Below, one piece after another: positions 1-11,737 of a DNA stretch of 11,737 bases (the stretch's first letter is position 1; each line of letters starts with the position of its first letter). Origin of the DNA: Dehalococcoidia bacterium (GTDB lineage: Bacteria > Chloroflexota > Dehalococcoidia > GIF9 > AB-539-J10); the NCBI GenBank assembly GCA_023128875.1, contig JAGMDB010000090.1, positions 1-11,737 of the forward strand, given 5' to 3'. Both the position numbers and the translations under genes were made by a program. The notes beneath the pieces are model-generated. The model was given only the letters and a program-made list of their open reading frames with translations, was not told the DNA's origin and searched no databases.

Positions 1-61
1 ATCCCGAACTCTACTTTTGAAAAAAGGAACGAGAATAATTTAGTATGTGTGGGGGTTAAAA

Positions 62-550
62 ATGAGCGACAAAACTAAACCACGCAAATCCTGGCATGAG
101 AAATTGGCGGATAGCAAAGGCCTGCCCAAAGTGGAAAAAATCACTGACAAAATGAGTAAAAGATGGGGAACAGGCACGGTTGTTATTCCAGCACCAAAAG
201 AAGTAGATGAAATTATGCGAAAAGTTCCCCAAGGTAGAGTTATTACAATAAATGAAATTCGTGCCAAACTCGCCCGAAAACACGGTGCTACAATCGGTTG
301 CCCCATAACTACTGGGATTTTCGCCTGGATTGCGGCTAATGCAGCAGGGGAAGCGGCAGAAGAAGGAAAGCAAGATATTACTCCTTACTGGCGGACATTA
401 AAATCCGCAGGGCAACTAAATGAAAAATACCCAGGAGGAGTAGAAGCTCAGGCTGCACATTTAGAAGAAGAGGGACACATAATTGAGCCAGGCAAAGGTA
501 AAAAGCCGCCAAAAGTGAAAGATTTCGAGAAATACCTGGTAAAACTATAA
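62..550 (+). CDS. MGMT-family DNA-binding-domain-like protein
   Basis: A 162-residue soluble protein that resembles the DNA-binding (winged-helix) domain of O6-methylguanine-DNA methyltransferases and their alkyltransferase-like relatives. Visible features are a basic N-terminus (residues 1-35), a helical stretch with VPQGRVITINEIRAKLARKHG (about 55-75, written here as one run of family-like sequence split by R59), then GCPITTGIFAWI (79-90), DITPYWRTLKSAG (105-117) and PGGVEAQ (124-130). The methyl-accepting PCHR motif of true MGMT is absent. The only cysteine is C80 in GCPITTG, so a suicide alkyl-transfer activity is not supported and DNA binding or lesion recognition is an inference. I chose ATG 62 because GGGGG at 51-55 lies six bases upstream. 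A GTG at 47 is in frame but would put that ribosome-binding site inside the gene. No co-directional partner is next to it. Confidence 0.8.
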   Translation: MSDKTKPRKSWHEKLADSKGLPKVEKITDKMSKRWGTGTVVIPAPKEVDEIMRKVPQGRVITINEIRAKLARKHGATIGCPITTGIFAWIAANAAGEAAEEGKQDITPYWRTLKSAGQLNEKYPGGVEAQAAHLEEEGHIIEPGKGKKPPKVKDFEKYLVKL

Positions 551-561
551 GATTTTACCCG

Positions 562-625
562 CCGCTTCTCTTCAGTTTCTCTATCACGGTATCCGTCCCC
601 CCCAGCTGGTAGTACCCTCAGTAAT
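562..625 (-). pseudogene. Relic of the C-terminal end of an isocitrate/isopropylmalate dehydrogenase
   Basis: Read on the minus strand, this stretch gives GTTSWG in one frame and then, after a one-base shift, TDTVIEKLKR. That matches the AGTSQVADAVIEKLK end of the intact dehydrogenase at 1581-2702. At the DNA level 17 bases are identical (571-587 and 1627-1643). Only this tail is recognisable: the upstream DNA (626-700) does not continue the homology by eye. I read it as the remains of a second, frameshifted copy or paralogue. The match is short, so a small duplicated fragment is also possible. Confidence 0.5.
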
Positions 626-705
626 TCTTTCACGTGTGTTGTTTTGCACCATTTGAGCGCTTATCCTGTGAACTTCCGCAGGGGCAGAAAGGCATGAGCC
701 TGCTC

Positions 706-949
706 TTAATATCGTAAAAATTTATCGCCAAACTCCTGTGCTAAAAGCTCACTTTCCCGTGAAGCAATTGTAGGGGGCAAGGTAATTATATACGCTAAAG
801 CTGCTGCATAAACAAAAGTTACCGGCCCAATATTGGCCAAAAAAGAAGTCACAAGAAGGACTCCGGCTGAAAGTCCCACGAAATGAGAGCCCTCGATTAA
901 AAACCTCCGTTATACATGCCTGAGAGACAAAAGCAACACATTGAGGCAT
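706..949 (-). pseudogene. Relic of an isoprenylcysteine-methyltransferase-like membrane protein
   Basis: A minus-strand frame open from 894 to the TAA at 706-708 has no start codon but reads as a coherent protein end. SHFVGLSAGVLLVTSFLANI is followed by a second hydrophobic segment with AAALAYIITLP, then SRESELLAQEFGDKFLRY. This is the usual C-terminal layout of ICMT/PEMT-like methyltransferases: an HP-Y-G motif, two membrane segments, then an EE-L-FG-Y-Y block. The N-terminal half is not in the same frame, which hits a stop just upstream. A second frame beginning at 949 (MPQCVAFVSQ...VFNRG) can be joined to it by one frameshift near 890. The coding potential is therefore broken, and I call it a pseudogene. 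The family assignment rests on motif shape alone. Confidence 0.45.
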
Positions 950-979
950 TATAGCGGGAAGTGACCAAGCCCCAGGAAC

Positions 980-1423
980 TCACGGTTTGGGCATCTTGCT
1001 TCTGGTATTTTTGAGTTGTGCCCTTTGTTCCCCTTTTAGTTTCTTAGACTTGAAGCGGTCAATTATATTCTCGATGTTCTGATGTCTCCTGGTAACTAGG
1101 ATTCTATGCCAATCACTGTAGTAGTAAATACCCTGGAAAACTGAGCCGCTTAAAACTCCGTAGGCTATTGCTGAAGTCAAAAAGCGGACGCTCATTATCA
1201 GACTAAGAATTATTATCCCTGAAGAGATGAGCCAATGGTGAAAGTGAATCTCGTGATTTCCAAAAGGAAAGACAATTGATTTTATTCTACCAGGTTTTCC
1301 ACTTGCTTTGCCGGCCATGTATTTGGTTAGCAGAAAACCTAGAAGCCAGCCCACAAAGAAGAGATAGCCAAGAATAATACCAGCAGCTAGTACTGGGGGG
1401 ATGCAAGCTAACTTTCTCTTCAT
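980..1423 (-). CDS. Small integral membrane protein with HEIHFHHW motif, function unknown
   Basis: A 147-residue protein I cannot assign to a named family. Residues 8-36 form one long hydrophobic segment. A loop carries the histidine-rich motif HEIHFHHW (57-64). Two more hydrophobic segments follow at about 64-79 and 81-101, then YYSDWHRIL (100-109) and a basic, charged tail (110-147). Three or four membrane passes are likely. Five histidines and a tryptophan clustered at a membrane boundary (H57, H60, H62, H63, plus H106 later) could bind a metal or a lipid head group, which is inference. The start is ATG 1423, with a GGAG about 10 bases upstream. An in-frame stop codon (TAG, 1424-1426) of a short upstream reading frame abuts the start. 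The gene stands apart from the carboxylase operon and is next to decayed DNA. Confidence 0.7.
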   Translation of the reverse strand: MKRKLACIPPVLAAGIILGYLFFVGWLLGFLLTKYMAGKASGKPGRIKSIVFPFGNHEIHFHHWLISSGIIILSLIMSVRFLTSAIAYGVLSGSVFQGIYYYSDWHRILVTRRHQNIENIIDRFKSKKLKGEQRAQLKNTRSKMPKP

Positions 1424-1508
1424 CTAAGAGATACTCCATATTCCCACTTTGCCACGTTCAACTATTTTCCCTCCATAACAGAATCTACCAACTTTCTCCT
1501 CGCCCATC

Positions 1509-1537
1509 ATAATAATAACAGAATGGAGCCGTTGCAA
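1509..1537 (-). promoter_or_regulatory. Possible promoter for the membrane-protein gene
   Basis: On the minus strand TTGCAA (1537-1532) and TATTAT (1514-1509) are separated by 17 bases. They match the sigma-70 consensus at 4/6 and 5/6 positions. Transcription would start near 1502, leaving a leader of about 80 bases before ATG 1423. This is seen by eye only. Confidence 0.35.
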
Positions 1538-1545
1538 TCCCTATT

Positions 1546-1570
1546 GTGAGTATAATATGAGATTACTCAC
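1546..1570. repeat. Inverted repeat downstream of the dehydrogenase gene
   Basis: GTGAGTA (1546-1552) and TACTCAC (1564-1570) are perfect inverted repeats around an 11-base loop. They sit 11 bases past the stop codon of the dehydrogenase gene, where a transcript end would be expected. No T-run follows on the minus strand, so it is not a standard intrinsic terminator. It could be an mRNA 3'-end hairpin or an operator. Confidence 0.3.
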
Positions 1571-1580
1571 TGTAGTTCCT

Positions 1581-2702
1581 TCACTGCCTCCTCGCTTCGC
1601 TCGGAGCTTCGGCTCGGGGCTTTGGTTTCAGTTTCTCTATCACCGCATCGGCTACCTGGCTGGTGCCTGCAGCGGTACTATCACCGCGGTCAAGCTTCAA
1701 GTCGTAAGTAACATTCTTGCCTTCAGCGATGACCTCCATTATGGCTTTCTCTAACCTGTCAGCACTATCCCCTTCTCCCAGATAGCGAAGCATCATTACA
1801 CCGGAGAGCATCGTTGCTATGGGGTTAACCTTGTTTTTGCCAGCGTACTTAGGGGCACTTCCATGAGTAGGTTCAAAGATAGCTATATCATCCCCTATAT
1901 TAGCTCCTGGAGCCAAGCCTAAGCCGCCAACCAGCCCAGCGCACAAATCGGAAATAAAGTCTCCATAGAAATTAGGTAAGACAAGAACATCAAATTGCTG
2001 AGGCCTCCTTACTAATTGCATGCAGGTAGCATCCAGAACCATGTCGGCAAATTCTGTATCTGGATACTCCTTAGCCACTTCACGAGCGGTATTCAGGAAA
2101 AGCCCATCGGAAAATTTGAGTATGTTCGCCTTGTGGATTGCCGTCACCTTTTTTCTGCCGTTTTGTCTGGCATATTCGAAGGCAAATTTGACAATCCGTC
2201 TGCTTGCCGTCTGGGATATCACTTTCAAGCTTACTGCGGAATCTTTACTTATCTTTTCTCCAGTAGCTTGAACAACTAACTCCAATAGTTTTGCGGTTTC
2301 TGTGCCATCCTTGGCGAATTCAATGCCGCAGTAAAGGTCTTCAGTGTTTTCCCTGACCACCACTATATCCACGCTTTTGTAGGGGGTATGAACACCAGGA
2401 TAGGTCTTACAGGGGCGGAGACAGGCATAAAGGGCCAATTTCTTGCGCAAAGCCACATTAACGCTTCTAAAGCCACTGCCTATGGGAGTGGTCACCGGTC
2501 CCTTGATGGCAACTTTATTCCTCTTTATTGACTCCAGAGCACTTTCAGGGAGGGGCGTACCAAACATATCCTGAGCTTGGCTACCTATGATAGCAATATC
2601 CCACTGAAACTGGACTCCCGTAGCCTCCAACGTTCTCTGGGCTGCCCTGGCTACTTCAGGGCCTACGCCATCGCCAGGTATGAAAGTTACTTTATGTACC
2701 AC
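1581..2702 (-). CDS. icd: Isocitrate/isopropylmalate dehydrogenase family enzyme, probably isocitrate dehydrogenase
   Basis: A 373-residue beta-decarboxylating dehydrogenase that oxidises a 2-hydroxyacid (isocitrate, homoisocitrate or 3-isopropylmalate) to a 2-oxoacid. FIPGDGVGPEV begins the fold. The substrate block RSVNVALRKKLALYACLRP is isocitrate-dehydrogenase-like, including the Ser-x-Asn-x-x-x-Arg pattern, and is followed by RENTEDLYCGIE and the metal-binding aspartate region GDFISDLCAGLVGG. The coenzyme loop reads HGSAPKYAGKNKVNP. It keeps the Lys-Tyr and Val that in E. coli isocitrate dehydrogenase select NADP+, and a Tyr is retained in VTYD, so I infer NADP+ preference. I chose GTG 2702 because AGGAGG lies six bases upstream; a TTG at 2717 would contain that site. 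The last 14 residues (PKPRAEAPSEARRQ) are encoded by repeat-like DNA and look like an acquired tail. It follows the hydro-lyase pair, which suggests a joint route. Confidence 0.82.
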   Translation of the reverse strand: MVHKVTFIPGDGVGPEVARAAQRTLEATGVQFQWDIAIIGSQAQDMFGTPLPESALESIKRNKVAIKGPVTTPIGSGFRSVNVALRKKLALYACLRPCKTYPGVHTPYKSVDIVVVRENTEDLYCGIEFAKDGTETAKLLELVVQATGEKISKDSAVSLKVISQTASRRIVKFAFEYARQNGRKKVTAIHKANILKFSDGLFLNTAREVAKEYPDTEFADMVLDATCMQLVRRPQQFDVLVLPNFYGDFISDLCAGLVGGLGLAPGANIGDDIAIFEPTHGSAPKYAGKNKVNPIATMLSGVMMLRYLGEGDSADRLEKAIMEVIAEGKNVTYDLKLDRGDSTAAGTSQVADAVIEKLKPKPRAEAPSEARRQ

Positions 2703-2717
2703 AATATTCCTCCTCAA

Positions 2718-2910
2718 ATTGGGGTCGTCTCGCTTCGCTAATCGCCCTCATCCTTCGATAAACTCAGGACAGGCTTTAATCCTCTCCCTTGGCGGGAGAG
2801 CAAGTTGTATCGTCGCATCCGCTCCTCGCAATGACACTTTTACCACGAGGGAGGGAAAAATCACAAGCCATAAGTTCCTAAACAAATCCAGATTCCTAAG
2901 TTTTCAGAAG
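2718..2910. repeat. Cluster of dispersed palindromic-type repeats inside the operon
   Basis: This 190-base gap between the small hydro-lyase subunit and the dehydrogenase is a mosaic of three recognisable pieces. The first, 2749-2773, contains CCTTCGATAAACTCAGG, very close to the phrase CCTTCGACAAGCTCAGG found as a dispersed repeat in many bacterial genomes. The second, 2782-2800, is a perfect 7-bp hairpin, CTCTCCC-TTGGC-GGGAGAG. The third, 2810-2836, is on the minus strand a variant of the widespread CATTGCGAGGAGCGAAGCGACG repeat. A piece at 2728-2738 (TCTCGCTTCGC) resembles DNA at the 3' end of the dehydrogenase gene. The plus-strand open frame across it has no protein-like features, and I see no gene here. 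Confidence 0.6.
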
Positions 2911-3426
2911 TCAGTGCTTCGTTATGACAAAGTCCTTGTGCTTTTGTATGTAAGGGATAAGTCCACCTTCCCCTAGGATAGCAGACATTAACGGTGGTGT
3001 TTTGCTACAGCTCAGTTTAGCTCCAGAAGTCAAGTTGGTGACCGCACCATGAGATAAATTTATCTCTAACTGATCCCCGTCACTGATTTTATCAGTGTCA
3101 CACAGCAGCACAGGCATCCCTTGATTTATGGCATTTCTAAAGAAAATACGAGCTGCTGACTTAGCCAATATAGCGCTTATCCCTGCCATTTTAATCACCA
3201 CAGGAGCATGCTCTCGACTGGAGCCTAATCCAAAGTTTTTGCCAGCTACCAGAAAGTCACCTGGTCTTACCCTGGAGACAAACGTAGGGTCGGCATCTTC
3301 CAGTGCATGTTTAGCAAGCTGGGGTAAATTACTTCTTAAATGGGCGTACCTGCCAGGGATGATAAGGTCTGTGGAAATATTATCACCCAATTTGATAGCT
3401 TCGCCCTTAAGTATTATGTCAGGCAT
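2911..3426 (-). CDS. leuD: 3-isopropylmalate dehydratase/homoaconitase-type small subunit
   Basis: A 171-residue swivel-domain subunit that pairs with the [4Fe-4S] large subunit encoded just upstream to isomerise a 2-hydroxyacid by dehydration and rehydration. Visible motifs are GDNISTDLIIPGRY (14-27), the substrate-specificity loop YAHLRS (27-32) and the active-site block FGLGSSREHAP (65-75). The DNISTDLIIPGRY form and the length are those of the archaeal-type LeuD/HacB family rather than the roughly 200-residue E. coli type. An arginine in the specificity loop is compatible with a tricarboxylate substrate, as described for methanogen homoaconitase, so aconitase or homoaconitase activity is an alternative to isopropylmalate isomerase. 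I chose ATG 3426 because the protein then starts like its relatives; GTG 3438 adds four residues. A hairpin covers the AGGAG just upstream. Confidence 0.85.
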   Translation of the reverse strand: MPDIILKGEAIKLGDNISTDLIIPGRYAHLRSNLPQLAKHALEDADPTFVSRVRPGDFLVAGKNFGLGSSREHAPVVIKMAGISAILAKSAARIFFRNAINQGMPVLLCDTDKISDGDQLEINLSHGAVTNLTSGAKLSCSKTPPLMSAILGEGGLIPYIQKHKDFVITKH

Positions 3427-3439
3427 CTTTAGCTTCACC

Positions 3440-3458
3440 CTCTCCTGCTAGAGGAGAG
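3440..3458 (-). promoter_or_regulatory. Hairpin covering the ribosome-binding site of the small subunit
   Basis: On the minus strand CTCTCCT (3458-3452), a 5-base loop and AGGAGAG (3446-3440) form a perfect 7-bp hairpin. Its 3' arm holds the best Shine-Dalgarno-like sequence ahead of the small-subunit gene. The arm would be hidden when the hairpin folds. It may also simply be another copy of the dispersed CCCTCTCC...GGAGAG repeat. Confidence 0.4.
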
Positions 3459-3479
3459 AAATTTGTAGGTAGCATTCTG

Positions 3480-4733
3480 TCACATAATCTCCCTGGGGTC
3501 AGTAATCTCACCTCTTATAGCTGAAGCGGCGGCTGTAGCTGGGCTAGCTAAGTATATCATGGCTTCAGGATTACCCATTCTGCCCCTGAAATTGCGGTTG
3601 GCAGTGGAAAGGCAAATTTCACCATCGCCCAATACTCCTTGATGAAGGCCAAGGCAAGCAGCGCAGCCCGGCGGGAGAATAACTGCCCCAGCTTCAATCA
3701 GGGTTTTAATATAGCCGTTGTCCATGGCTTGAGTAAGCACTTGCCTCGAAGCCGGTGCCACAAGTAACCTAGTATCAGGAGACCTCTTCTTCCCCTGTAG
3801 AATGCTAGTAGCCACAGCTAAATCCTCAAGACGTCCATTGGTACAAGTACCAATGAATACCTGCTGGATTTTAATCCCCCTTGCCAAGCTCACCGGAAAA
3901 GCATTATCTACAGTATGAGGAAAGGAGGCCATTGGCTCAAGCTCAGCCATATTCAAAGATATGAGTCGCTCATAATGTGCATCAGCGTCAGGATAAAGCG
4001 GCCTATAGCTATCGCTGCGGTTTTGAGCGGCCAGGAATTCTTGAGTGGCCTCGTCACTGGGGAATAAGCCAACTTTGGCGCCAGCCTCTACAGCCATGTT
4101 AGCTATCGTAAGACGTTCTGGCACAGCAATGTGAGCTAAGGCTTCACCGCCAAATTCTAAAGCTTTGTAGGTAGCACCATCAGCCCCAAGCTGGCCTATA
4201 AGATATAAAATCAAGTCCTTAGCATAAACTCCTGTGGAAAATACGCCTTTAAGATTGATGAAAAAAGTTTCAGGCACACGAAACCAGGTTTTACCCAAGG
4301 CTAAAGCCACTGCTACATCGCTGGAACCCATGCCAGTGGCGAAAGCACCTAAGGCACCAGCAGTAACAGTATGAGAGTCAGAGCCAACAATGATGTCTCC
4401 AGGCCTGGCGAAACGCTCGGCTACTAGCTGGTGGCATACCCCATCGCCTACTTCATAAATATGGCAACTCGTTTCATGGGCAAAGCGACGCAGAAGCATG
4501 TGGTCATTAGAAAGCTGTCTGGCGGGGCTGGGAGCAGCGTGGTCAAGGAAAATCACTGCATTCTGTGGTTCAGCTACTTTTCGAAAGCCACTTTCCTTGA
4601 ATTGCCTCACCGTCAAAGGTCCGGTAGTATCCTGGACAAAAGCTAAATCTACATTGGCAACGACGATATCCCCGGCCCTGGCATCAGTTTTTGCTCTGGC
4701 AGTCAAAATCTTCTCAGCTAGTGTTTTGCCCAT
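3480..4733 (-). CDS. leuC: 3-isopropylmalate dehydratase/homoaconitase-type large subunit
   Basis: A 417-residue aconitase-superfamily large subunit. DHAAPSP (64-70), GSDSHTVTAGALGAFATGMGSSD (117-139 with S118 and H121) and the three [4Fe-4S] cysteines C297 in GTCTNGR and C357/C360 in PPGCAACLG are all present. NRNFRGRMG (379-387) is the expected substrate-phosphate-like loop region. The length matches the short LeuC2/HacA branch (about 420 residues), not the E. coli type (about 466). It should form a heterodimer with the small subunit 53 bases downstream. The start codon lies four bases after the stop of the biotin-carboxyltransferase gene and has no clear ribosome-binding site, so translational coupling is likely. 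The substrate (isopropylmalate, homocitrate or citrate) cannot be fixed from the large subunit. Its place between an oxaloacetate-forming enzyme and an isocitrate-dehydrogenase-like enzyme favours a citrate/isocitrate-type role. Confidence 0.88.
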   Translation of the reverse strand: MGKTLAEKILTARAKTDARAGDIVVANVDLAFVQDTTGPLTVRQFKESGFRKVAEPQNAVIFLDHAAPSPARQLSNDHMLLRRFAHETSCHIYEVGDGVCHQLVAERFARPGDIIVGSDSHTVTAGALGAFATGMGSSDVAVALALGKTWFRVPETFFINLKGVFSTGVYAKDLILYLIGQLGADGATYKALEFGGEALAHIAVPERLTIANMAVEAGAKVGLFPSDEATQEFLAAQNRSDSYRPLYPDADAHYERLISLNMAELEPMASFPHTVDNAFPVSLARGIKIQQVFIGTCTNGRLEDLAVATSILQGKKRSPDTRLLVAPASRQVLTQAMDNGYIKTLIEAGAVILPPGCAACLGLHQGVLGDGEICLSTANRNFRGRMGNPEAMIYLASPATAAASAIRGEITDPREIM

Positions 4734-4737
4734 CAGA

Positions 4738-6606
4738 CTAAGCTATTATTGCCAGAACGTCATTCGTATTTACTCGATCGCCAGGCTTAAAACCTATGGC
4801 CACAATCTTGCCATCCTCAGGAGCAGGTAGAACGTTTTCCATCTTCATCGCCTCCAAAATAACTACTCCGTCACCTGCTACAACCTCATCTCCCTCATTA
4901 ACCAGATAACGTATAATTGTGCCTGGCATTGGTGCTGCCAGAGGGAATCCGCTTACCTTCTCAGTTTTCTCTTCTCCAGTTTCCGGTTGCAGGTCAGCAA
5001 TTGGTGGCGTCATAGTAAATGAAGAGCCACCAGAAAACCCAATATCTACCTTATGATATTTTCCATCAACGAGGACATTAAGAGTTATCCCACTCATTCC
5101 TGGTGATGATGTCTTCGCTTCCACCTTATCAACCAATTCACCATTCTTAGCTTTAGCTACGAGTTCATCTTCCCGTTTTACGTCTTCCAGAGTTTTTGCT
5201 TTCGTTTCCGGGAGAGGTTCCTCCAAACCATATTTCCACCTCAGAAACCTCATTCCACTGGTAGGATAGAGGGCATAGATAAGAACATCCCCAATGTCTT
5301 TGGCGATATCCTCAGTTGCTTCCCTAGCTTTGTCTAACTCGGGCTCCAGTATATCAGCAGCCCGACAAGTGATTGGCTGCTTCCCCCTTTCATAATCCTC
5401 GAGAACGATTTTCTGCACTTTGGGGTCGATGGGAGCTGGCGGTTTACCATAAAGGCCGTAGGCGTAATCCTTAATCTGCTGGGAAATAACCTTATATCTA
5501 CCAAAGAGGACATTGCTAATGGCCTGTGTGGCCACAATTTGGCTCGTAGGCGTAACCAGGGGCGGATAGCCCAATTCCTTACGCGTTCGTGGGAGTTCTG
5601 CGTAAACCTCGGCCAGTCTATCAAGAGCATCAGCTTCTCTTAGCTGGGCCACCATATTAGTAAACATTCCTCCAGGAATGTGATGCCACAGCACTCCCGT
5701 ATCAATCACTGACATTTTCGTTGTATCTAAAAAGTCGCGATACTTGGGGGCTATGGATTCAAAATATTCGCCTAGCTTAAGAAGGTTCTCCAGATTAAGC
5801 CCGGTATCCCGCGGTGCTCCACGGAGAGCTACTACTATTGGTTCTATCGCTGGGTGTGAAGTGCGTAGCGCAAAAGGGGCAATGCAAGTATCAATGATAT
5901 CCACTCCAGCCTCAATAGCCTTTAAATGGCTCATGAATGCCATGCCGCTGGTAAAATGGCTGTGCAGGCAAACGGGTATTTTTAAGGCTCGCTTTAGAGC
6001 TTCAGTTAAATTGTAAGCATCGTCTGGAGCAATAAGCCCAGCCATGTCCTTAATACACAGGCTATCTGCCCCCATGCCTTGAATCAGGAGAGCTTTCTTG
6101 ACATAGTAATCGATGTTGTAGACCGGCCCACCTAGCTTCTGTTGAGTAAGAGAGTAGCTTAATGACCCCTGTATATGTTTGCCACAGTCCTTGATTGCCT
6201 TGAAGGCAGCCTCAAAATTGCGTTCATCATTAATAGCATCGAAAACGCGGAAAACGTCTATGCCGCAATCAGCGGCATGGTGAACAAAAGCAGTAACTAC
6301 ATCATCGGCATAATTCCGATAGCCAACAAGATTCTGCCCTCGGAGTAACATTTGGAGCTTTGTATGAGGCATTAATTCCTTCAAAATACGCACCCTTTCC
6401 CAGGGGTCCTCATTCAGGAATCGAGTCATAACATCAAAAGTAGCTCCTCCCCATATCTCCATAGACCAAAAGCCAACTTTATCCATCTCCGTAGCAATAG
6501 CTTCTAAGTCCTTAGTGCGTACTCGAGTAGCTAGCAAAGACTGATGCCCATCACGAAAGGTGAGATCAGTAATTTTCACCGCATTTTTGTTGCCAGCCAA
6601 ATTCAT
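4738..6606 (-). CDS. pycB: Pyruvate carboxylase subunit B / oxaloacetate decarboxylase alpha-type carboxyltransferase with biotin carrier domain
   Basis: A 622-residue protein that moves a carboxyl group between biotin and pyruvate/oxaloacetate. The carboxyltransferase barrel (about 12-290) shows LTFRDGHQS (15-23), the probable carbamylated lysine K186 in LCIKDMAG and the metal-binding HSH (H215, H217) in CLHSHFTSG. The conserved post-barrel domain (about 290-460) has GGMFTN and [11 protein letters not shown] charged linker leads to a C-terminal biotinyl domain with EAMKMEN, whose lysine (K588) is 34 residues before the end, as is normal. ATG 6606 is preceded by GGGAGGT; a GTG at 6618 lies within that site. 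There is no biotin carboxylase gene in the window. With the MmdA-like protein encoded 71 bases upstream it could act as a transcarboxylase (5S plus 1.3S fusion with 12S), as the PycB half of a two-subunit pyruvate carboxylase, or in a decarboxylase. Confidence 0.9.
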
Positions 6607-6677
6607 ATTACCTCCCACAAATAAACTATTTCTTGTTGCCCGGGAATTTGGTTCTTAATCCCTACGGTTTGAACCTT

Positions 6678-8228
6678 TTAAAGAGGAATATTACCATGTT
6701 TTTTAGGTGTATTGCAGATGTCTTTATTCCGTAACATCTGTAATGCCTTGATTACCTTGGGGCGTGTCTCTCGAGGGGCAATGATATCATCAATATAGCC
6801 CCTGGCTGCTGCCACATAAGGGTTGGCAAACTTATCCCGATATTCTCGAACTAGCCTCTGCCTTGCTTCCTCCGCATTCTCCGATTTCTTGATTTCGTTA
6901 CGATAGACAACATTCACGGCCCCCTCAGGACCCATCACGGCAATTTCCGCTGTAGGCCAGGCATAATTAATATCCCCTCGCAAGCTCTTGCTGCTCATAG
7001 CAATATAAGCTCCTCCGTAGGCCTTGCGAATGATTATACTCACCTTGGGCACAGTAGCCTCAGCATAGGCAAAAAGGAGCTTGGCGCCATGCCTGATAAT
7101 ACCCCTGAATTCCTGGTCCGTACCTGGCATGTATCCCGGAACATCAACGAACGTAACCAGAGGGATATTGAAGCAATCACAAACACGTACAAACCTGGCT
7201 GCTTTATCGCTAGCATCGATATCCAGGGCTCCAGCTAAGTGCATCGGCTGTTGGGCTAAAATGCCCACACTTTGAGCATCTAAATGAGCAAAACCAACAA
7301 TAAAATTACGGGCAAACTTCTCATGAACTTCCATAAAATCGCTATTGTCGACCACCTTTGTAATAATCCTCTTCATATCATATGGCTGAGTGGGGTTAAC
7401 CGGAACGATGTTAAGAAATTCCTCATCCATACGATTAGGATCATCGTTTGTATCTGCCAAAGGCGGCCTCTCCTTATAGCTCTGAGGAAGGAAGCCCAAT
7501 AATCTGCGCACCTGCTGGAAACATTGCTCCTCAGTATCACATACGAAGTGGCAATTGCCACTTCGGGTGGCATTTACCGTGGCCCCACCCAGTTCCTCTA
7601 AGCTGACTTCTTCTCCAGTTACTGCTTTGACAACCTCAGGACCGGTGATATAACTTTGTCCCAAATCTTTAACCATGAAGACAAAGTCAGTAATAGCTGG
7701 GGAATAAACAGCGCCTCCTGCGGTGGGACCAACTATTACCGAGATTTGAGGGATACTGCCCGAGTAGAGGGTATTTCGCGTAAAAATCTCACCATAGCCG
7801 GCAAGACTATCAGCTCCTTCCTGGATACGCGCCCCGCCGGAATCCAACACAGCCACAAAAGGAGCACCATTCCGGGCAGCTAGATCCATTACCTTACAAA
7901 TCTTTCCAGCGGCTACCTCAGACAACGACCCGCCAAAAACGGTGAAGTCCTGTGCAGAAACAAAGATATGTCGGTTATTTACCTTGCCATAGCCAGTAAC
8001 CACTGAATCACCAAGAAACTTCCGCTCCGCCATGTCAAAGTCAGTACAGCGATGGGTTACAAAAGGGTCGATTTCTTCAAAAGTCCCCGCATCGAAAAGA
8101 AGAGCAATCCGCTCCCTGGCAGTTAGTTTTCCCTTGGCATGTTGTGCCTCAATGCGTTTAAGCCCTCCCCCACTCTTGGCTTCTTCTCTGGTTTTTTTTA
8201 GTTGAGCTAACTCTTTCTCGATTTCCAT
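6678..8228 (-). CDS. Acyl-CoA carboxyltransferase subunit (MmdA/PccB type)
   Basis: A 516-residue carboxyltransferase with the duplicated crotonase fold. It moves carboxyl groups between biotin and an acyl-CoA (propionyl/methylmalonyl-CoA or acetyl/malonyl-CoA). Motifs are QHAKGKLTARERI (29-41), DSGGARIQEGADSL (129-142), the first oxyanion loop GPTAGGAVYSPA (167-178), VDVPGYMPGTDQE (361-373) and the second loop RKAYGGAYIAM (401-411). Position I409 corresponds to the residue reported to steer acyl-CoA choice in Streptomyces enzymes (Asp in PccB, Ile in the acetyl-CoA-accepting form). Strict propionyl-CoA use is therefore not indicated. MmdA and archaeal dual-specificity enzymes also carry a hydrophobic residue there. 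It is the first gene of the operon. ATG 8228 gives the usual family N-terminus; an in-frame TTG at 8240 adds four residues, and neither has a well-spaced ribosome-binding site. Confidence 0.88.
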   Translation of the reverse strand: MEIEKELAQLKKTREEAKSGGGLKRIEAQHAKGKLTARERIALLFDAGTFEEIDPFVTHRCTDFDMAERKFLGDSVVTGYGKVNNRHIFVSAQDFTVFGGSLSEVAAGKICKVMDLAARNGAPFVAVLDSGGARIQEGADSLAGYGEIFTRNTLYSGSIPQISVIVGPTAGGAVYSPAITDFVFMVKDLGQSYITGPEVVKAVTGEEVSLEELGGATVNATRSGNCHFVCDTEEQCFQQVRRLLGFLPQSYKERPPLADTNDDPNRMDEEFLNIVPVNPTQPYDMKRIITKVVDNSDFMEVHEKFARNFIVGFAHLDAQSVGILAQQPMHLAGALDIDASDKAARFVRVCDCFNIPLVTFVDVPGYMPGTDQEFRGIIRHGAKLLFAYAEATVPKVSIIIRKAYGGAYIAMSSKSLRGDINYAWPTAEIAVMGPEGAVNVVYRNEIKKSENAEEARQRLVREYRDKFANPYVAAARGYIDDIIAPRETRPKVIKALQMLRNKDICNTPKKHGNIPL

Positions 8229-8259
8229 TTCCTTTTTCAATCGCTTAGCTTAGACTGCT

Positions 8260-8288
8260 ATTTTAATAGTCTCCTCTGTTATAATCAA
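8260..8288 (-). promoter_or_regulatory. Promoter of the carboxylase/hydro-lyase operon
   Basis: On the minus strand TTGATT (8288-8283) and TAAAAT (8265-8260) are 17 bases apart. They match sigma-70 hexamers at 4/6 and 5/6 positions. The predicted start near 8253 leaves a leader of about 25 bases before ATG 8228. The -35 element overlaps the -10 element of the opposing folP promoter by three bases. Confidence 0.5.
8277..8285 (+). promoter_or_regulatory. Extended -10 promoter of folP, giving a leaderless transcript
   Basis: TGTTATAAT is a perfect extended -10 element (TGn plus TATAAT at 8280-8285). Transcription should begin at about 8292, one base from the folP ATG at 8293. No Shine-Dalgarno sequence precedes that ATG and no good -35 element is visible, which fits a leaderless mRNA. 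Confidence 0.6.
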
Positions 8289-8292
8289 TGCT

Positions 8293-9174
8293 ATGCCCAA
8301 TCACAATGAAGACAAAGCAAAAAAACTTGGCTATACTCACTGCGGCAGGACAACTTTTCACTGGGGCAGGCGAACCTACATTATGGGGATCGTAAACCTT
8401 TCTCCAGATTCCTTCGCTGGTGATGGATTAAGCAATATTGAAGCTGCTGTAGGCCAGGCAAAACGCATGGCCATAGAAGGAGCAGATATACTCGATATTG
8501 GTGGCGAATCCACCCGCCCTAGCTCAACTCCGATTTCAGTTGATGAGGAACTTGGCCGTGTAATTCCTGCTCTGGAGAAGCTAGCCGAAGAGGTAACATT
8601 GCCATTGAGCATTGATACCTACAAGCTAGAAGTGGCTCGAAAGGCTTTAGATGCCGGTGTCAACATGATAAACGATATCTGGGGACTAAAGCAGGAGCCA
8701 GGGCTAGCCGAGCTAGCAGCGCAAAGAAAGGTACCTCTTATTTTAATGAGCAATCAGCGCGATATCTCCCCACACCATGATGTTATCTTTCCTGACATTA
8801 TTACTGCGGTTATTGCCGATTTGCACAGAGCTATACAGCAAGCTCTAGCTATGGGTGTGCCTCCGGAGAATATCATCATTGACCCAGGAATCGGCTTCGG
8901 CAAAACGCAAGAACAAAACCTGGAACTCATGCGGCGCCTAGAGGAACTCAAGAGATTAGGCAAGCCCATTCTTTTAGCTAGCTCGCGTAAGTCAATAATA
9001 GGCCGTGTACTCAATTCGCCTCCTGAGCAGAGTTTAGAAGGAACAATGGCCACTGTAGCTATTGGTATCGCCAAAGGCGTCGATATTGTCCGCGTACATG
9101 ATGTCAAAGAGATAGCCCGTGTCTGTAAGATGAGCGATGCTATCATCAGAGAGGGGAACCTGCAAAGAATGTGA
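8293..9174 (+). CDS. folP: Dihydropteroate synthase
   Basis: A 293-residue TIM-barrel enzyme that condenses 6-hydroxymethyl-7,8-dihydropterin diphosphate with p-aminobenzoate to dihydropteroate in folate synthesis. GIVNLSPDSF (32-41), LDIGGESTRPSS (67-78), SIDTY (106-110), NMINDIWG (124-131), DPGIGFGKT (197-205), LLASSRKSIIG (227-237) and the last-strand VRVHDV (266-271) are all present and in order. One departure is LMSNQRD (151-157), where relatives commonly have LMHN or LMHM, so the usual histidine is a serine. The first 20 residues are a short polar extension. The ATG follows an extended -10 promoter with almost no leader. It is the first gene of a folP-folK-pterin synthase cluster. Confidence 0.93.
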   Translation: MPNHNEDKAKKLGYTHCGRTTFHWGRRTYIMGIVNLSPDSFAGDGLSNIEAAVGQAKRMAIEGADILDIGGESTRPSSTPISVDEELGRVIPALEKLAEEVTLPLSIDTYKLEVARKALDAGVNMINDIWGLKQEPGLAELAAQRKVPLILMSNQRDISPHHDVIFPDIITAVIADLHRAIQQALAMGVPPENIIIDPGIGFGKTQEQNLELMRRLEELKRLGKPILLASSRKSIIGRVLNSPPEQSLEGTMATVAIGIAKGVDIVRVHDVKEIARVCKMSDAIIREGNLQRM

Positions 9175-9282
9175 GAAATCGATTCTGGAATGCTTCTATA
9201 TTGGGGCATATCAGGAATATCAGCATCGTTTAAGAAGAAGAATTAGCCTTGGCAGTATCAAAGAGTTTAACAAAGGAATAAA

Positions 9283-9765
9283 TTGCCTACTGCTTATCTT
9301 TGTCTTGGGTCGAATTTGGGAGACCGTGAGAAAAACCTGATTCGGGCTTTGTCATTGCTTTCCACAGAGGTAAATCTCGATAAAGCTTCGTCCATTTATG
9401 AAACCGAGCCAGTAGGCTATAAAGAACAACCTTTTTTCCTCAATCTGGCATGTCAAGTCACAACCAATTTGAATCCTTGGGAACTCCTCCACTTAGCTAA
9501 AACCATTGAAAATAAAATGGGCAGAATACCCAGCAAGCAAATAAACGCGCCCCGTCCTATTGACATAGATATCCTTTTCTATAACAAGCAAATCATTAAT
9601 AGTAAGAATTTAACTGTCCCCCACCCCCGTCTAGCAAAACGAGCTTTCGTTCTCATACCACTATCCGAGATTGCTGCAGAGCTAATTCACCCCCAACTTG
9701 GCAAGAGTATTGCTGCATTAGTTAACAATGTGAGAGGGCAGAGTGGAGTGCGAAAATACAATTAG
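9283..9765 (+). CDS. folK: 2-amino-4-hydroxy-6-hydroxymethyldihydropteridine diphosphokinase
   Basis: A 160-residue HPPK that transfers diphosphate from ATP to 6-hydroxymethyl-7,8-dihydropterin, making the substrate of FolP. Diagnostic motifs are LGSNLGDRE (8-16), YETEPVGY (39-46), FFLNLAC (51-57), the Mg-binding PRPIDIDILFY (90-100 with D94 and D96) and VPHPRLAKRAFVLIPLSEI in the C-terminal third. The start is TTG 9283, supported by AAAGGA at 9272-9277; an ATG would have to be well inside the conserved first strand. A gap of 108 bases separates it from folP, and I see no gene in that gap. The stop codon overlaps the ribosome-binding site of the next gene. Confidence 0.93.
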   Translation: MPTAYLCLGSNLGDREKNLIRALSLLSTEVNLDKASSIYETEPVGYKEQPFFLNLACQVTTNLNPWELLHLAKTIENKMGRIPSKQINAPRPIDIDILFYNKQIINSKNLTVPHPRLAKRAFVLIPLSEIAAELIHPQLGKSIAALVNNVRGQSGVRKYN

Positions 9766-9774
9766 GAGGTTGCG

Positions 9775-10143
9775 ATGTATCAATTATTTGTAGAAGGACA
9801 TTTTGATGCTGCACACTATCTGCGACATTACCGTGGCAAGTGTGAAAAGTTGCATGGCCACCGCTTTAAAGTAGTAGTACGTTTAAACACCACAAAGCTC
9901 GACCAGGCTGGCTTAGCCTACGACTTTGCCCAAATAAAGCGCTTCCTAAGAGAAGCCCTAGCTCCATTTGACCACGCTTGCCTCAACGATGTACCACCAT
10001 TTGACGAAACTGAGCCCTCCTGTGAGAATCTTGCCCCTACCATATATAATAGGCTTCAGCCCTGTTTTTTAGGGTCACCAGTAACATTAGCATGCATCGA
10101 GGTGTGGGAATCTCCCACAAGCGGAGTCGCTTACTACCCTTGA
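9775..10143 (+). CDS. 6-pyruvoyltetrahydropterin synthase/QueD family protein with CExxHGH motif (PTPS-I/III)
   Basis: A 122-residue T-fold enzyme acting on 7,8-dihydroneopterin triphosphate. Zinc ligands are H14 (FDAAHYL) and H27/H29 in CEKLHGH (23-29). D66-H67 in FDHACLND and E109/E112 in IEVWES are the other active-site positions. Both C23 (QueD-type, 6-carboxytetrahydropterin synthase) and E24 (the residue that in PTPS-III allows 6-hydroxymethyldihydropterin formation) are present. From the published COG0720 subfamily scheme, a CExxHGH motif marks enzymes able to serve both queuosine and folate synthesis. Its place directly after folP and folK, with no folB nearby, supports a FolB-bypass role. 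AGGAGGT, overlapping the folK stop, lies four bases before ATG 9775. The 3' end overlaps the convergent Trm112-like gene by 10 bases. A queD annotation would also be reasonable. Confidence 0.88.
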   Translation: MYQLFVEGHFDAAHYLRHYRGKCEKLHGHRFKVVVRLNTTKLDQAGLAYDFAQIKRFLREALAPFDHACLNDVPPFDETEPSCENLAPTIYNRLQPCFLGSPVTLACIEVWESPTSGVAYYP

Positions 10144-10325
10144 GCCTTACCCAGGTCTGGCGGCAACAAGTTGGGAATGGCGTCTTCAATAGGATATGAA
10201 TGCCGACAACTGAAGCAGTACAGGGAGCCACCGATAACCTCCTCACCCTCCTCCCTATCCACCTTCAGTTGCAAAGGCCCTTTACATACTGGACACACCA
10301 GGATTTGCATTAATTCCTTTTTCAT
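10134..10325 (-). CDS. Trm112-like zinc-ribbon protein (UPF0434 family)
   Basis: A 63-residue protein with two CxxC pairs, CPVC (11-14) and CFSC (37-40), set in the typical frame ILVCPVCKGPL ... LYCFSCRHSYPIEDAIPNLLP. This is the Trm112/YcaR-like fold, which in eukaryotes and archaea activates methyltransferases. Bacterial members are small and mostly uncharacterised, so a partner role is inference. It is encoded convergently to the pterin synthase with a 10-base overlap of the two 3' ends. ATG 10325 lies 14 bases from a good extended -10 element and lacks a clear Shine-Dalgarno sequence, so the transcript is nearly leaderless. Confidence 0.85.
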   Translation of the reverse strand: MKKELMQILVCPVCKGPLQLKVDREEGEEVIGGSLYCFSCRHSYPIEDAIPNLLPPDLGKAQG

Positions 10326-10339
10326 CTTAGCTATAGAGA

Positions 10340-10348
10340 ATTATACCA
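10340..10348 (-). promoter_or_regulatory. Extended -10 promoter of the Trm112-like gene
   Basis: The minus strand reads TGGTATAAT (10348-10340), a perfect extended -10. The predicted start near 10333 leaves only about 8 bases before ATG 10325. The -35 region is weak. Confidence 0.55.
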
Positions 10349-10380
10349 GATAAGCACCATAATAAGTAACCAGAGAAAAA

Positions 10381-10389
10381 TGCTATAAT
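10381..10389 (+). promoter_or_regulatory. Extended -10 promoter of the 10408 gene
   Basis: TGCTATAAT is a perfect extended -10. Transcription starting near 10396 would give a short leader containing GGGAGGA (10397-10403), a good ribosome-binding site four bases before ATG 10408. Confidence 0.6.
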
Positions 10390-10407
10390 ATCCCGTGGGA
10401 GGACAAA

Positions 10408-10743
10408 ATGACAGTTCAGATAAAGAAAACTTACCGAGGTATAAGCCCCGAGATGCTTCATGACGAGATACGAGATCTGGCGCAACAAGAGGGGGTTTTG
10501 GTAGGCGAAGCCAAACTACAAACATATTCACTTCCCAGCGGCTCAACGCAATCTCGTGTCACCCTAGTATTTAAGGCGCAGGCTAATCAGAAACAGTGTG
10601 GCAGCGCACATATTATAGGCTCACCCTCAGGCGAAACTAAAATAATGCTTGACTTCGACGAAACACTCCTGCCCCAGGAGAAAATCACATCCCTTCAAGA
10701 AAAAATGGACTTTGTACTCGGCTCATACGAACTTAAGTGGTGA
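10408..10743 (+). CDS. Hypothetical protein, 111 residues
   Basis: I do not recognise this protein. It is soluble, has no signal peptide or membrane segment, and alternates charged helical stretches (EMLHDEIRDLAQQEG, 15-29) with strand-like segments (RVTLVFKAQ, KIMLDFDETL). It ends in a helix and GSYELKW. The pattern suggests a small alpha/beta domain. Expression is well supported by a TGCTATAAT promoter and a GGGAGGA ribosome-binding site ahead of ATG 10408. It is divergent from the Trm112-like gene and followed by the putative small-RNA gene, not by another coding region. Confidence 0.75.
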   Translation: MTVQIKKTYRGISPEMLHDEIRDLAQQEGVLVGEAKLQTYSLPSGSTQSRVTLVFKAQANQKQCGSAHIIGSPSGETKIMLDFDETLLPQEKITSLQEKMDFVLGSYELKW

Positions 10744-10819
10744 TATATGGAAGAAACCAGACGGCATTTCCGAAGCCTGAAAACTGTATAGCATACCCCG
10801 GACACCGCACAAGAGAAAT

Positions 10820-10848
10820 TTGACAAATTTTTGGGGATGTGCTAGATT
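10820..10848 (+). promoter_or_regulatory. Strong promoter of the putative small RNA
   Basis: TTGACA (10820-10825, perfect -35), a 17-base spacer and TAGATT (10843-10848, 4/6) with an extended TG at 10840-10841. It is the best -35 box in the window. The predicted start is G10855, which is also the first base of the closing helix of the downstream RNA. Confidence 0.6.
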
Positions 10849-10854
10849 GAGAAT

Positions 10855-11012
10855 GTCCCAAGTAATCAAACCAGGCGGATGGAGAGGGAGGGAAGAGGCA
10901 AGTAAGCGGAAGCTGAAAGGAACTGGGAAGCAAAATTCCTGGTGCAAGGTAGGCGGAAGCTGGAAAGCCAAGCAGATAAGCAAAAGGAGAGGTTACTTGG
11001 GGCGGTTTTTTT
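10855..11012 (+). ncRNA. Putative structured small RNA, class unknown
   Basis: This stretch lacks a convincing protein but has the layout of a free-standing RNA gene. The 5' end (10855-10867) pairs with 10991-11003 in a 13-bp helix: 11 consecutive pairs from C10857 to C10867 inside, plus G-C and U-G at the base, with one further U-G within the run. Seven T residues (11006-11012) follow. Inside, ACTGGGAA (10922-10929) and TTCCTGGT (10936-10943) form an 8-bp hairpin with loop GCAAAA and two wobble pairs. It is flanked by two near-identical modules (10898-10919 and 10944-10967) that share GCGGAAGCTG, each able to form a GGAA-tetraloop mini-hairpin. The interior is strongly purine-rich, including GGAGAGGGAGGGAAGAGG (10881-10898). 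I could not match it to SRP RNA, 6S RNA, RNase P or a riboswitch consensus. No gene follows closely on the plus strand, so a trans-acting RNA is more likely than a leader. Confidence 0.5.
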
Positions 11013-11292
11013 GCCCTACCTCAAGGATTCTCAGTTGCCCCTGCAATTATTGTTAATTGTCTCAAAGCCATCTCATATTGCACATCTCTTGACGTCTTTC
11101 CTCAGTAACCATAAAGGGGGGATGCCTTTTGGCTCGGGCGATGGAAAGGCAAAATACAAAGCAAAACCATGTGCAACAGAGAGCCTCCTGAGCCTGAGTT
11201 CCTTCTGTCAATCCACAGTGCCATCGCTTCGTTTACCAAGTAATGAGGAGGAAGAAACTCAGTAGTTAAGAGTGTACATCCCGATGGAATGT
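11013..11292. other. Region without a recognisable gene
   Basis: These 280 bases hold no protein I can support. A plus-strand open frame runs through to 11265 but has low-complexity, non-protein-like content. A 6-bp inverted repeat (GCCTTT 11124-11129, AAAGGC 11145-11150) is the only structure noticed. A third copy of CAAGTAA occurs at 11237-11243. Confidence 0.5.
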
Positions 11293-11631
11293 CTAGCTCC
11301 AGATACGTTGTCCTGACGAGGTAATGCTGCTGGTAGGTAACTTGACTATGAATTCCGCTCCTCTGCCCAAGGTGCTGCTAACCTCAATATTGCCACCATG
11401 AGCCAAAACTATCTCCCTGGCTATGGCTAGCCCCAGGCCAACGCCAGTTCTCATTTCATCAGCTTGATAGAAACACCCAAATGCATGAGCTAACTGCTCA
11501 GAGGAAATTTCAGGCCTGCTGCCAGCTACCCTGATTTCAAGGCAATCAGTGGTAGCTGGACGACCAATAGTATTCACTTGTCTCCCAACCGGAGTATATT
11601 TTAGGCCGTTGTCCAGCAAGTCAATGGTTGG
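11293..11631 (-). pseudogene. Relic of a histidine-kinase ATPase domain
   Basis: The minus-strand frame from 11631 to the stop at 11293 reads as the C-terminal half of a sensor histidine kinase. The N-box IDLLDNGLKYTPVG, an F-box-like FGCFYQADEMRTG, the G2 box GVGLGLAIAREIVLAHGG and the ending GRGAEFIVKLP are clear. The G1 box, normally DxGxGI, is degraded to AGSRPEI and lacks the ATP-binding aspartate. There is no dimerisation domain, sensor region or start codon: the frame meets a stop at 11632-11634 and then a tRNA terminator. It cannot encode a working kinase and is a truncated remnant. A TTG at 11619 could start a 108-residue product, but I consider that unlikely. Confidence 0.7.
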
Positions 11632-11640
11632 TCATACCAC

Positions 11641-11680
11641 GGTGCAAACAAATAAGGCAGGCTAATCCGACCTGCCTTAT
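11641..11680 (-). terminator. Intrinsic terminator of the tRNA transcript
   Basis: On the minus strand ATAAGGCAGG (11680-11671) and CCTGCCTTAT (11661-11652) form a perfect 10-bp stem with a 9-base loop. It is followed by the T-rich stretch TTGTTTG. It lies 9 bases past the CCA end of the tRNA gene. Confidence 0.8.
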
Positions 11681-11689
11681 ACGCTTTCT

Positions 11690-11737
11690 TGGTAGCGGGG
11701 GTTGGATTTGAACCAACGACCTCCGGGTTATGAGCCC
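11690..11737 (-). tRNA. tRNA-Met (CAT), probably initiator, 3' part only
   Basis: The last 48 bases of a tRNA gene, cut by the window edge inside the anticodon arm. The minus strand reads GGGCTCATAACCC: anticodon CAT in a seven-base loop between three G-C pairs. Those three pairs are the hallmark of initiator tRNA. Next come the variable loop AGGTC, a T-arm GTTGG/CCAAC around TTCAAAT, the acceptor strand CCCCGCT, discriminator A and an encoded CCA. The 5' acceptor strand and D-arm lie outside the window, so the usual 1-72 mismatch cannot be checked. Confidence 0.93.

Follow-up and report, generated by a model that had tools for sequence, protein, structure and literature searches.

We have analyzed an 11,737-nucleotide stretch of DNA from a Dehalococcoidia bacterium (the window: contig JAGMDB010000090.1 of assembly GCA_023128875.1, positions 1 to 11,737) and found that positions 10855..11003 of its forward strand very probably are a free-standing gene for a small structured RNA. 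Comparison at the sequence level shows this locus to be a paralogue within a hitherto undescribed family of Chloroflexota RNAs, the commonest copy of which lies convergent, tail to tail, to the gene of an unusual purine-salvage enzyme, a hypoxanthine phosphoribosyltransferase (HPRT) fused to a domain here called X. The RNA family with this genetic partner is new and is not catalogued in Rfam.

The predicted promoter (10820..10848) has a -35 box TTGACA at 10820-10825, a 17-nt spacer and a -10 box TAGATT at 10843-10848 preceded by TG, matching the consensus at 10 of 12 positions. Five promoter-like sites were found in 10300-11737 versus 1.6 (standard deviation 1.4) in shuffled sequences, and the one of the RNA gene had the top score. 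The predicted start, G10855, is the first base of a 13-bp closing helix (P1), in which 10855..10867 pairs with 10991..11003, followed by GG and by a run of seven T at 11006..11012, the predicted terminator tail. P1 appears in the minimum free energy (MFE) fold and in the pair counts of relatives, where a T-run is also found. The earlier note, made from these letters alone, had put promoter, helix, T-run and start at these same places, and re-reading the sequence and scanning it for promoters gave them again. A simple terminator scan that admits loops of 3-8 nt only did not report the stem before the T-run. The MFE of the 158-nt stretch 10855-11012 was -46.1 kcal/mol, versus -35.8 (standard deviation 3.5) for 200 dinucleotide shuffles (z -2.96), one of which was as good. 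Fold energy and promoter of this single copy are suggestive; the comparative data settle that it is an RNA gene.

We gathered 125 copies, 119 of them distinct and with enough upstream sequence. A TTGACA box, allowing a single mismatch, was present at the right distance in 114 of the 119 (103 exact), versus 119 of 2380 shuffled upstream regions, a -10-like element in 113, and at least five T within 12 nt after P1 in 115. The closing helix has 13 pairs in 86 of these copies, 12 in 31 and 11 in two. There is some circularity in these figures, as the first 60 loci were found or ended with the promoter in the models and P1 was part of every model. Among 57 usable copies found by a promoter-free RNA model, the -35 box was present in 53, versus 122 of 2850 shuffled sequences (4%), and the T-run also in 53, versus 1554 of 2850 controls. 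The T-run counts for little, since the surrounding flanks are rich in T and shuffling them in place still gives a pass in 79% and 55%. We conclude from these counts that family members carry a sigma-70-type promoter of their own and a conserved P1 ahead of a T-run.

The paired structure is supported by the changes seen among relatives. In 42 chosen members from the class, 98.2% of the P1 cells were paired and 8 of the 13 pairs had changed on both sides. Promoter, helix and T-run recur together in relatives and P1 covaries, with compensatory changes in the homologues, in line with the earlier suggestion that their agreement on the same ends is hard to put down to chance. Within the order there is a type of ~155 nt with two modules (alignment A3, 28 rows) and one of ~112 nt with a single module (A2, 24 rows). 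In A2, 96.7% of the cells were paired, with both-sided changes in 10 of 25 pairs; in A3 the corresponding values were 95.2% and 9 of 26 when the modules were drawn as hairpins, and 94.9% and 7 of 26, none of them in the module helices, when they were drawn as a rod. None of 500 shuffles reached the observed paired cells or covariation score for A2 or either version of A3. The count of further pair types was reached by 0/500 shuffles for A2, 16/500 for the A3 hairpins and 78/500 for the A3 rod, and that of pairs with both-sided change by 1/500 for the A3 rod. Slid alignment controls were lower throughout.

These changes also bear on whether the stretch could be something other than an RNA gene, namely a repeat, a DNA element or a coding stretch. 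Its multiple copies in some genomes and an antisense frame that stays open from end to end of the RNA in 99 of 120 copies would fit such a reading, which we regard as extremely unlikely given the compensatory changes in P1 and a promoter and T-run in register with it. Besides, sense frames are mostly closed (in 80 of 120 distinct RNAs every sense frame contains a stop, and lengths take all values modulo 3), and the antisense openness goes with the purine-rich sense strand, which gives few antisense stop codons.

Inside P1, the MFE fold of the window copy predicts a rod (10897..10969). It begins with a GGC/GCC helix (10897-99/10967-69), next to which lies an AAGUA loop, and continues with two helices that pair the modules together (10905-07/10959-61 and 10912-14/10952-54) around a GGAA/GGAA internal loop (10908-11/10955-58). 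At its apex is an 8-bp hairpin (10922-10929/10936-10943) that covaries in relatives. The tandem modules flanking a central hairpin that had been described before are thus kept as to the hairpin and not as to the modules being separate; these look rather like two strands of one rod, since the MFE fold pairs them with each other. The rod is the more likely arrangement, as modeled from the window copy and from several distant short members (L211, L212) that show the modules as opposite rod strands. Weighing against it, the pair counts lean slightly to hairpins, whose helices have a few both-sided changes, the rod having none there. A strict rod-motif script applied to 93 members found the rod in 11 and a weaker version of it in 10, the other 72 giving no match, so that it cannot be taken as universal. 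The interior is rich in purines, and some members fold as a rod with AGUA/GAAA-type and GGAA/GGAA loops; across the class it varies, and no conserved aptamer core was seen. A variant beside an X-HPRT gene (L176, genome G110) has the promoter followed by a short hairpin (GTCCC/GGGGAC) and a module, but its ends lack the pairing that normally forms P1.

The Shine-Dalgarno-like runs of the interior had been proposed to touch 16S rRNA. We found no support for this or for a Shine-Dalgarno decoy: among 120 interiors, GGAGG was present in 69 versus a shuffled mean of 61.2, no clear enrichment, while AGGAG (36 versus 51.8) and AAGGAG (11 versus 20.5) were below the shuffled mean and GGAGGT above it (31 versus 10.0), in a test with mononucleotide shuffles that ignores the relatedness of the copies. 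The runs are mostly there because the composition of the interior is purine-rich.

Relatives of the RNA were found in the order of the window genome, elsewhere across its class, and also in further Chloroflexota families. A DNA search of 100 relatives gave matches in 82 at E up to 1, chance matches included, and from the match list a first set of 60 loci was taken, 20 automatically and 40 by hand. A profile of 11 loci, promoter included, matched 60/60 of them, some weakly or in two pieces, which is not a frequency, the loci having been chosen for their matches. Searching named genomes with a strict two-arm pattern yielded 33 stretches, of which 30 were titled Dehalococcoidia, Chloroflexi or Chloroflexota; the other three (one Gemmatales, two Vibrio) showed no promoter and were set aside as chance, and this pattern matched no viral contig. 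Model R1 was positive in 53 of 393 genomes of the class at E up to 0.01, some with three to five copies, and matched the window copy (G000:C175:10855-11003) with E 2e-6. Model R2, built from 42 members, matched it with E 4.8e-14, the window copy being itself a row of this model, and was positive in 29 of 400 genomes of the phylum, 15 of them outside the class and 12 of these in family f116. The genome counts of both models are lower limits. With filters off, R2 detected the RNA at E < 0.01 in 12 of 20 flanks of X genes from genomes missed before (L229 was marginal, 0.064), and an arm scan gave one further candidate, L237. The members gathered are 75-229 nt long. One match is in a single contig of 1,469,720 bases (G176), which we take to be Dehalococcoides mccartyi 195, a cultured dechlorinating organism; the predicted RNA there spans ~182 nt (G176:C1:689380-689561) and is convergent with the HPRT gene.

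Some individual copies deserve mention. The RNA of L003 (G049:C58) is near-identical to that of genome G002 despite a different genus assignment, and its contig may be contaminating. L146 and L147 (G039:C20) are identical RNAs ~18 kb apart, with the same flanking genes in opposite orientation, either an inverted duplication or an assembly artefact. L227 and L228 are tandem pairs of RNA genes beside an HPRT gene, their second copies having E values of 0.028 and 0.011.

The absence of a match to known RNA classes, claimed before without database searches, held when covariance models were used. With Rfam release 15 (4227 families), a tRNA was the sole match in the whole window at gathering thresholds; in 10700-11150 at E up to 5 there were three weak, implausible matches, with no 6S and no signal recognition particle (SRP) RNA among them, and no RNA family was found at these RNAs in 36 related loci (20 + 16) at E up to 0.5. 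The weak similarity of module 2 to DUF805b (12.1 bits, E 1.5) was judged to be chance. A literature search whose coverage leaves out most subscription papers and all supplements gave no recognized description of such an RNA. The Dehalococcoides rdhA motif is, as far as the relevant passages of PMC11109978 describe it, another RNA and not this family.

Several well known RNAs share features with the family. 6S RNA (RF00013) is likewise a free-standing, rod-like bacterial RNA with paired ends, from which the family differs by its sequence-conserved 13-bp P1. A 6S-like regulator acting on RNA polymerase in place of 6S within the class would agree with the rod shape, the paired ends, the strong promoter and the failure to find 6S in 61 relatives of the window genome. 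However, the covariance model of 6S matched the RNA in neither of the relaxed searches above, 6S and the family RNA coexist in one genome (G584), and copies can be as short as 75 nt, so that we consider this very improbable. 6S RNA was found in 66 of 301 phylum genomes, the listed matches all lying outside the class. The small SRP RNA (RF00169) was rejected, with no match to the RNA and an SRP RNA elsewhere in 28 of 41 genomes; none was found in the window assembly, which is incomplete. The bacterial Y RNAs of Ro60 ribonucleoproteins (RNPs) also have a conserved end-pairing stem and a variable interior, and the CsrB/RsmZ-type sponge RNAs have GGA-rich loops. Both were discarded, as the same 61 relatives contain neither a TROVE (Ro60) gene (0/61, one control genome positive) nor a CsrA gene (0/61, three control genomes positive), and no Y RNA was matched in Rfam. 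The orphan RNAs OLE and raiA are equally free-standing, conserved, structured and of unknown function, but the present RNA matches no Rfam family and was found in Chloroflexota only, other phyla being covered by one strict pattern.

A clue to a partner comes from the neighborhood. The gene immediately downstream, on the opposite strand, belongs to a single family in 46 of the first 60 loci, the largest upstream family numbering 10. Its product is a GAF-X-HPRT protein (HPRT by TIGR01203; for example L010:1770-3197, reverse strand). The same gene adjoins 8 of 11 class-level outlier loci, and when 15 HPRT flanks were taken from genomes without an R1 match, nine reached X and were scanned, giving the RNA in five and the variant in L176. 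In f116 the HPRT gene is one open reading frame (ORF) further along at 5 loci (BLASTP). Altogether, 74 of the 125 copies are linked to it (convergent, within 1.2 kb), 48 are unlinked and 3 are short of flank; by origin, linkage holds for 46/60 first loci, 23/60 found by models and 5/5 fetched via the HPRT gene. From the 3' end of the RNA to the HPRT gene there are between a few and some hundred nt. Moreover, in 400 phylum genomes all 29 RNA-positive ones carry X, versus 107 of the 371 others, and this co-occurrence holds also where X is unlinked to the RNA.

The window copy is one of the unlinked ones. The sister genome G002 holds both a window-type copy (L002) and a linked copy (L024), and for this reason we regard the window copy as a paralogue. 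The X gene of the window assembly lies near a contig start (G000:C110), so that a linked RNA of this genome, if any, may be outside that contig.

Domain X appears to be PD-(D/E)xK-like and to resemble T7 endonuclease I (its profile matched PDB chains with a best E of 3.5e-4 and three further values of 0.017-0.096); against Pfam Phage_endo_I it reached at best 22.2 bits, below the cut-off of 29.1. In 28 of 28 aligned domains the position taken by Lys in endonuclease I has an invariant Thr; X does keep the Asp and Glu of the alignment. The Lys of the E-x-K motif of endonuclease I has a catalytic role. The full X-HPRT protein gave an AF2 model of mediocre quality (pLDDT 69). Other Chloroflexota families have X as well, in short open frames. 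The genetic tie between a phosphoribosyltransferase and a structured RNA recalls the RNA-binding enzymes of the PyrR type, from which the present enzyme differs by being of the HPRT type, by the separate RNA gene and by the added endonuclease-I-like domain.

The reading that we prefer, plausible although short of an even chance, is that the RNA binds the X-HPRT protein as an RNP acting in trans. X would bind the folded RNA without cutting it, with Thr in place of Lys, and would tie it to the purine status that the HPRT domain would sense, as would the GAF domain in the class; unlinked copies such as that of the window would be further RNAs of the same protein. It is doubtful, yet a serious possibility, that the RNA acts in trans with another partner (RNA polymerase, the ribosome or mRNAs) and that the HPRT neighbor reflects old synteny with no functional role. 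The dispersed paralogues, each under its own promoter and with three to five copies in some genomes, the unlinked copies for which no fixed neighbors were seen and the variable interior all agree with this, while the linkage to HPRT persists across the class and f116 as upstream neighbors change, and the 29/29 co-occurrence with X extends to unlinked cases.

Action in cis has to be considered too. P1 and the T-run could form a conditional terminator, read-through of which would produce an RNA antisense to the HPRT mRNA. The convergent position at the 3' end of a nearby, purine-related gene invites this reading, and the antisense-acting riboswitches (SAM at ubiG, cobalamin at pocR), in the portions of PMC9943018 that describe them, are similarly convergent elements at the 3' end of a metabolic gene, a precedent that keeps it alive for the linked copy. 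The family differs from them in that 48/125 copies are away from the gene and in the lack of a visible conserved aptamer core across the class. The unlinked copies have 20 convergent and 24 same-strand neighbors (4 have none), and this lack of convergent bias favors action in trans. Antisense control in cis is on balance improbable.

Two ORFs lie near the RNA gene in the window. Upstream, an ORF of 111 aa (10408-10743, forward strand) has no Pfam match and is kept in L002 and L003. Downstream, near the contig end and beside the tRNA, a 108-aa HATPase_c fragment starting with TTG (11293-11619, reverse strand) resembles the C-terminal portion of a histidine kinase and is possibly broken.

Our data reveal a bacterial RNA family that extends over the class and beyond and has escaped Rfam; its promoter, its ends and much of its fold can be predicted, and one specific protein is a candidate partner. 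Should the RNA and X-HPRT assemble into the complex that we favor, purine salvage would be linked to an RNA machine. A more far-reaching version, which we consider rather unlikely as a whole, is that of a metabolite-linked RNP, in which an HPRT-X protein with an altered catalytic site binds its dedicated RNAs and dispersed paralogues, so that purine-salvage status would set how active a regulatory RNP is across much of the Dehalococcoidia and in other Chloroflexota; if true, this would represent a novel type of enzyme system regulated by RNA. The copy in what is presumably the D. mccartyi 195 genome makes expression and partners of the RNA directly testable in a cultured organism.
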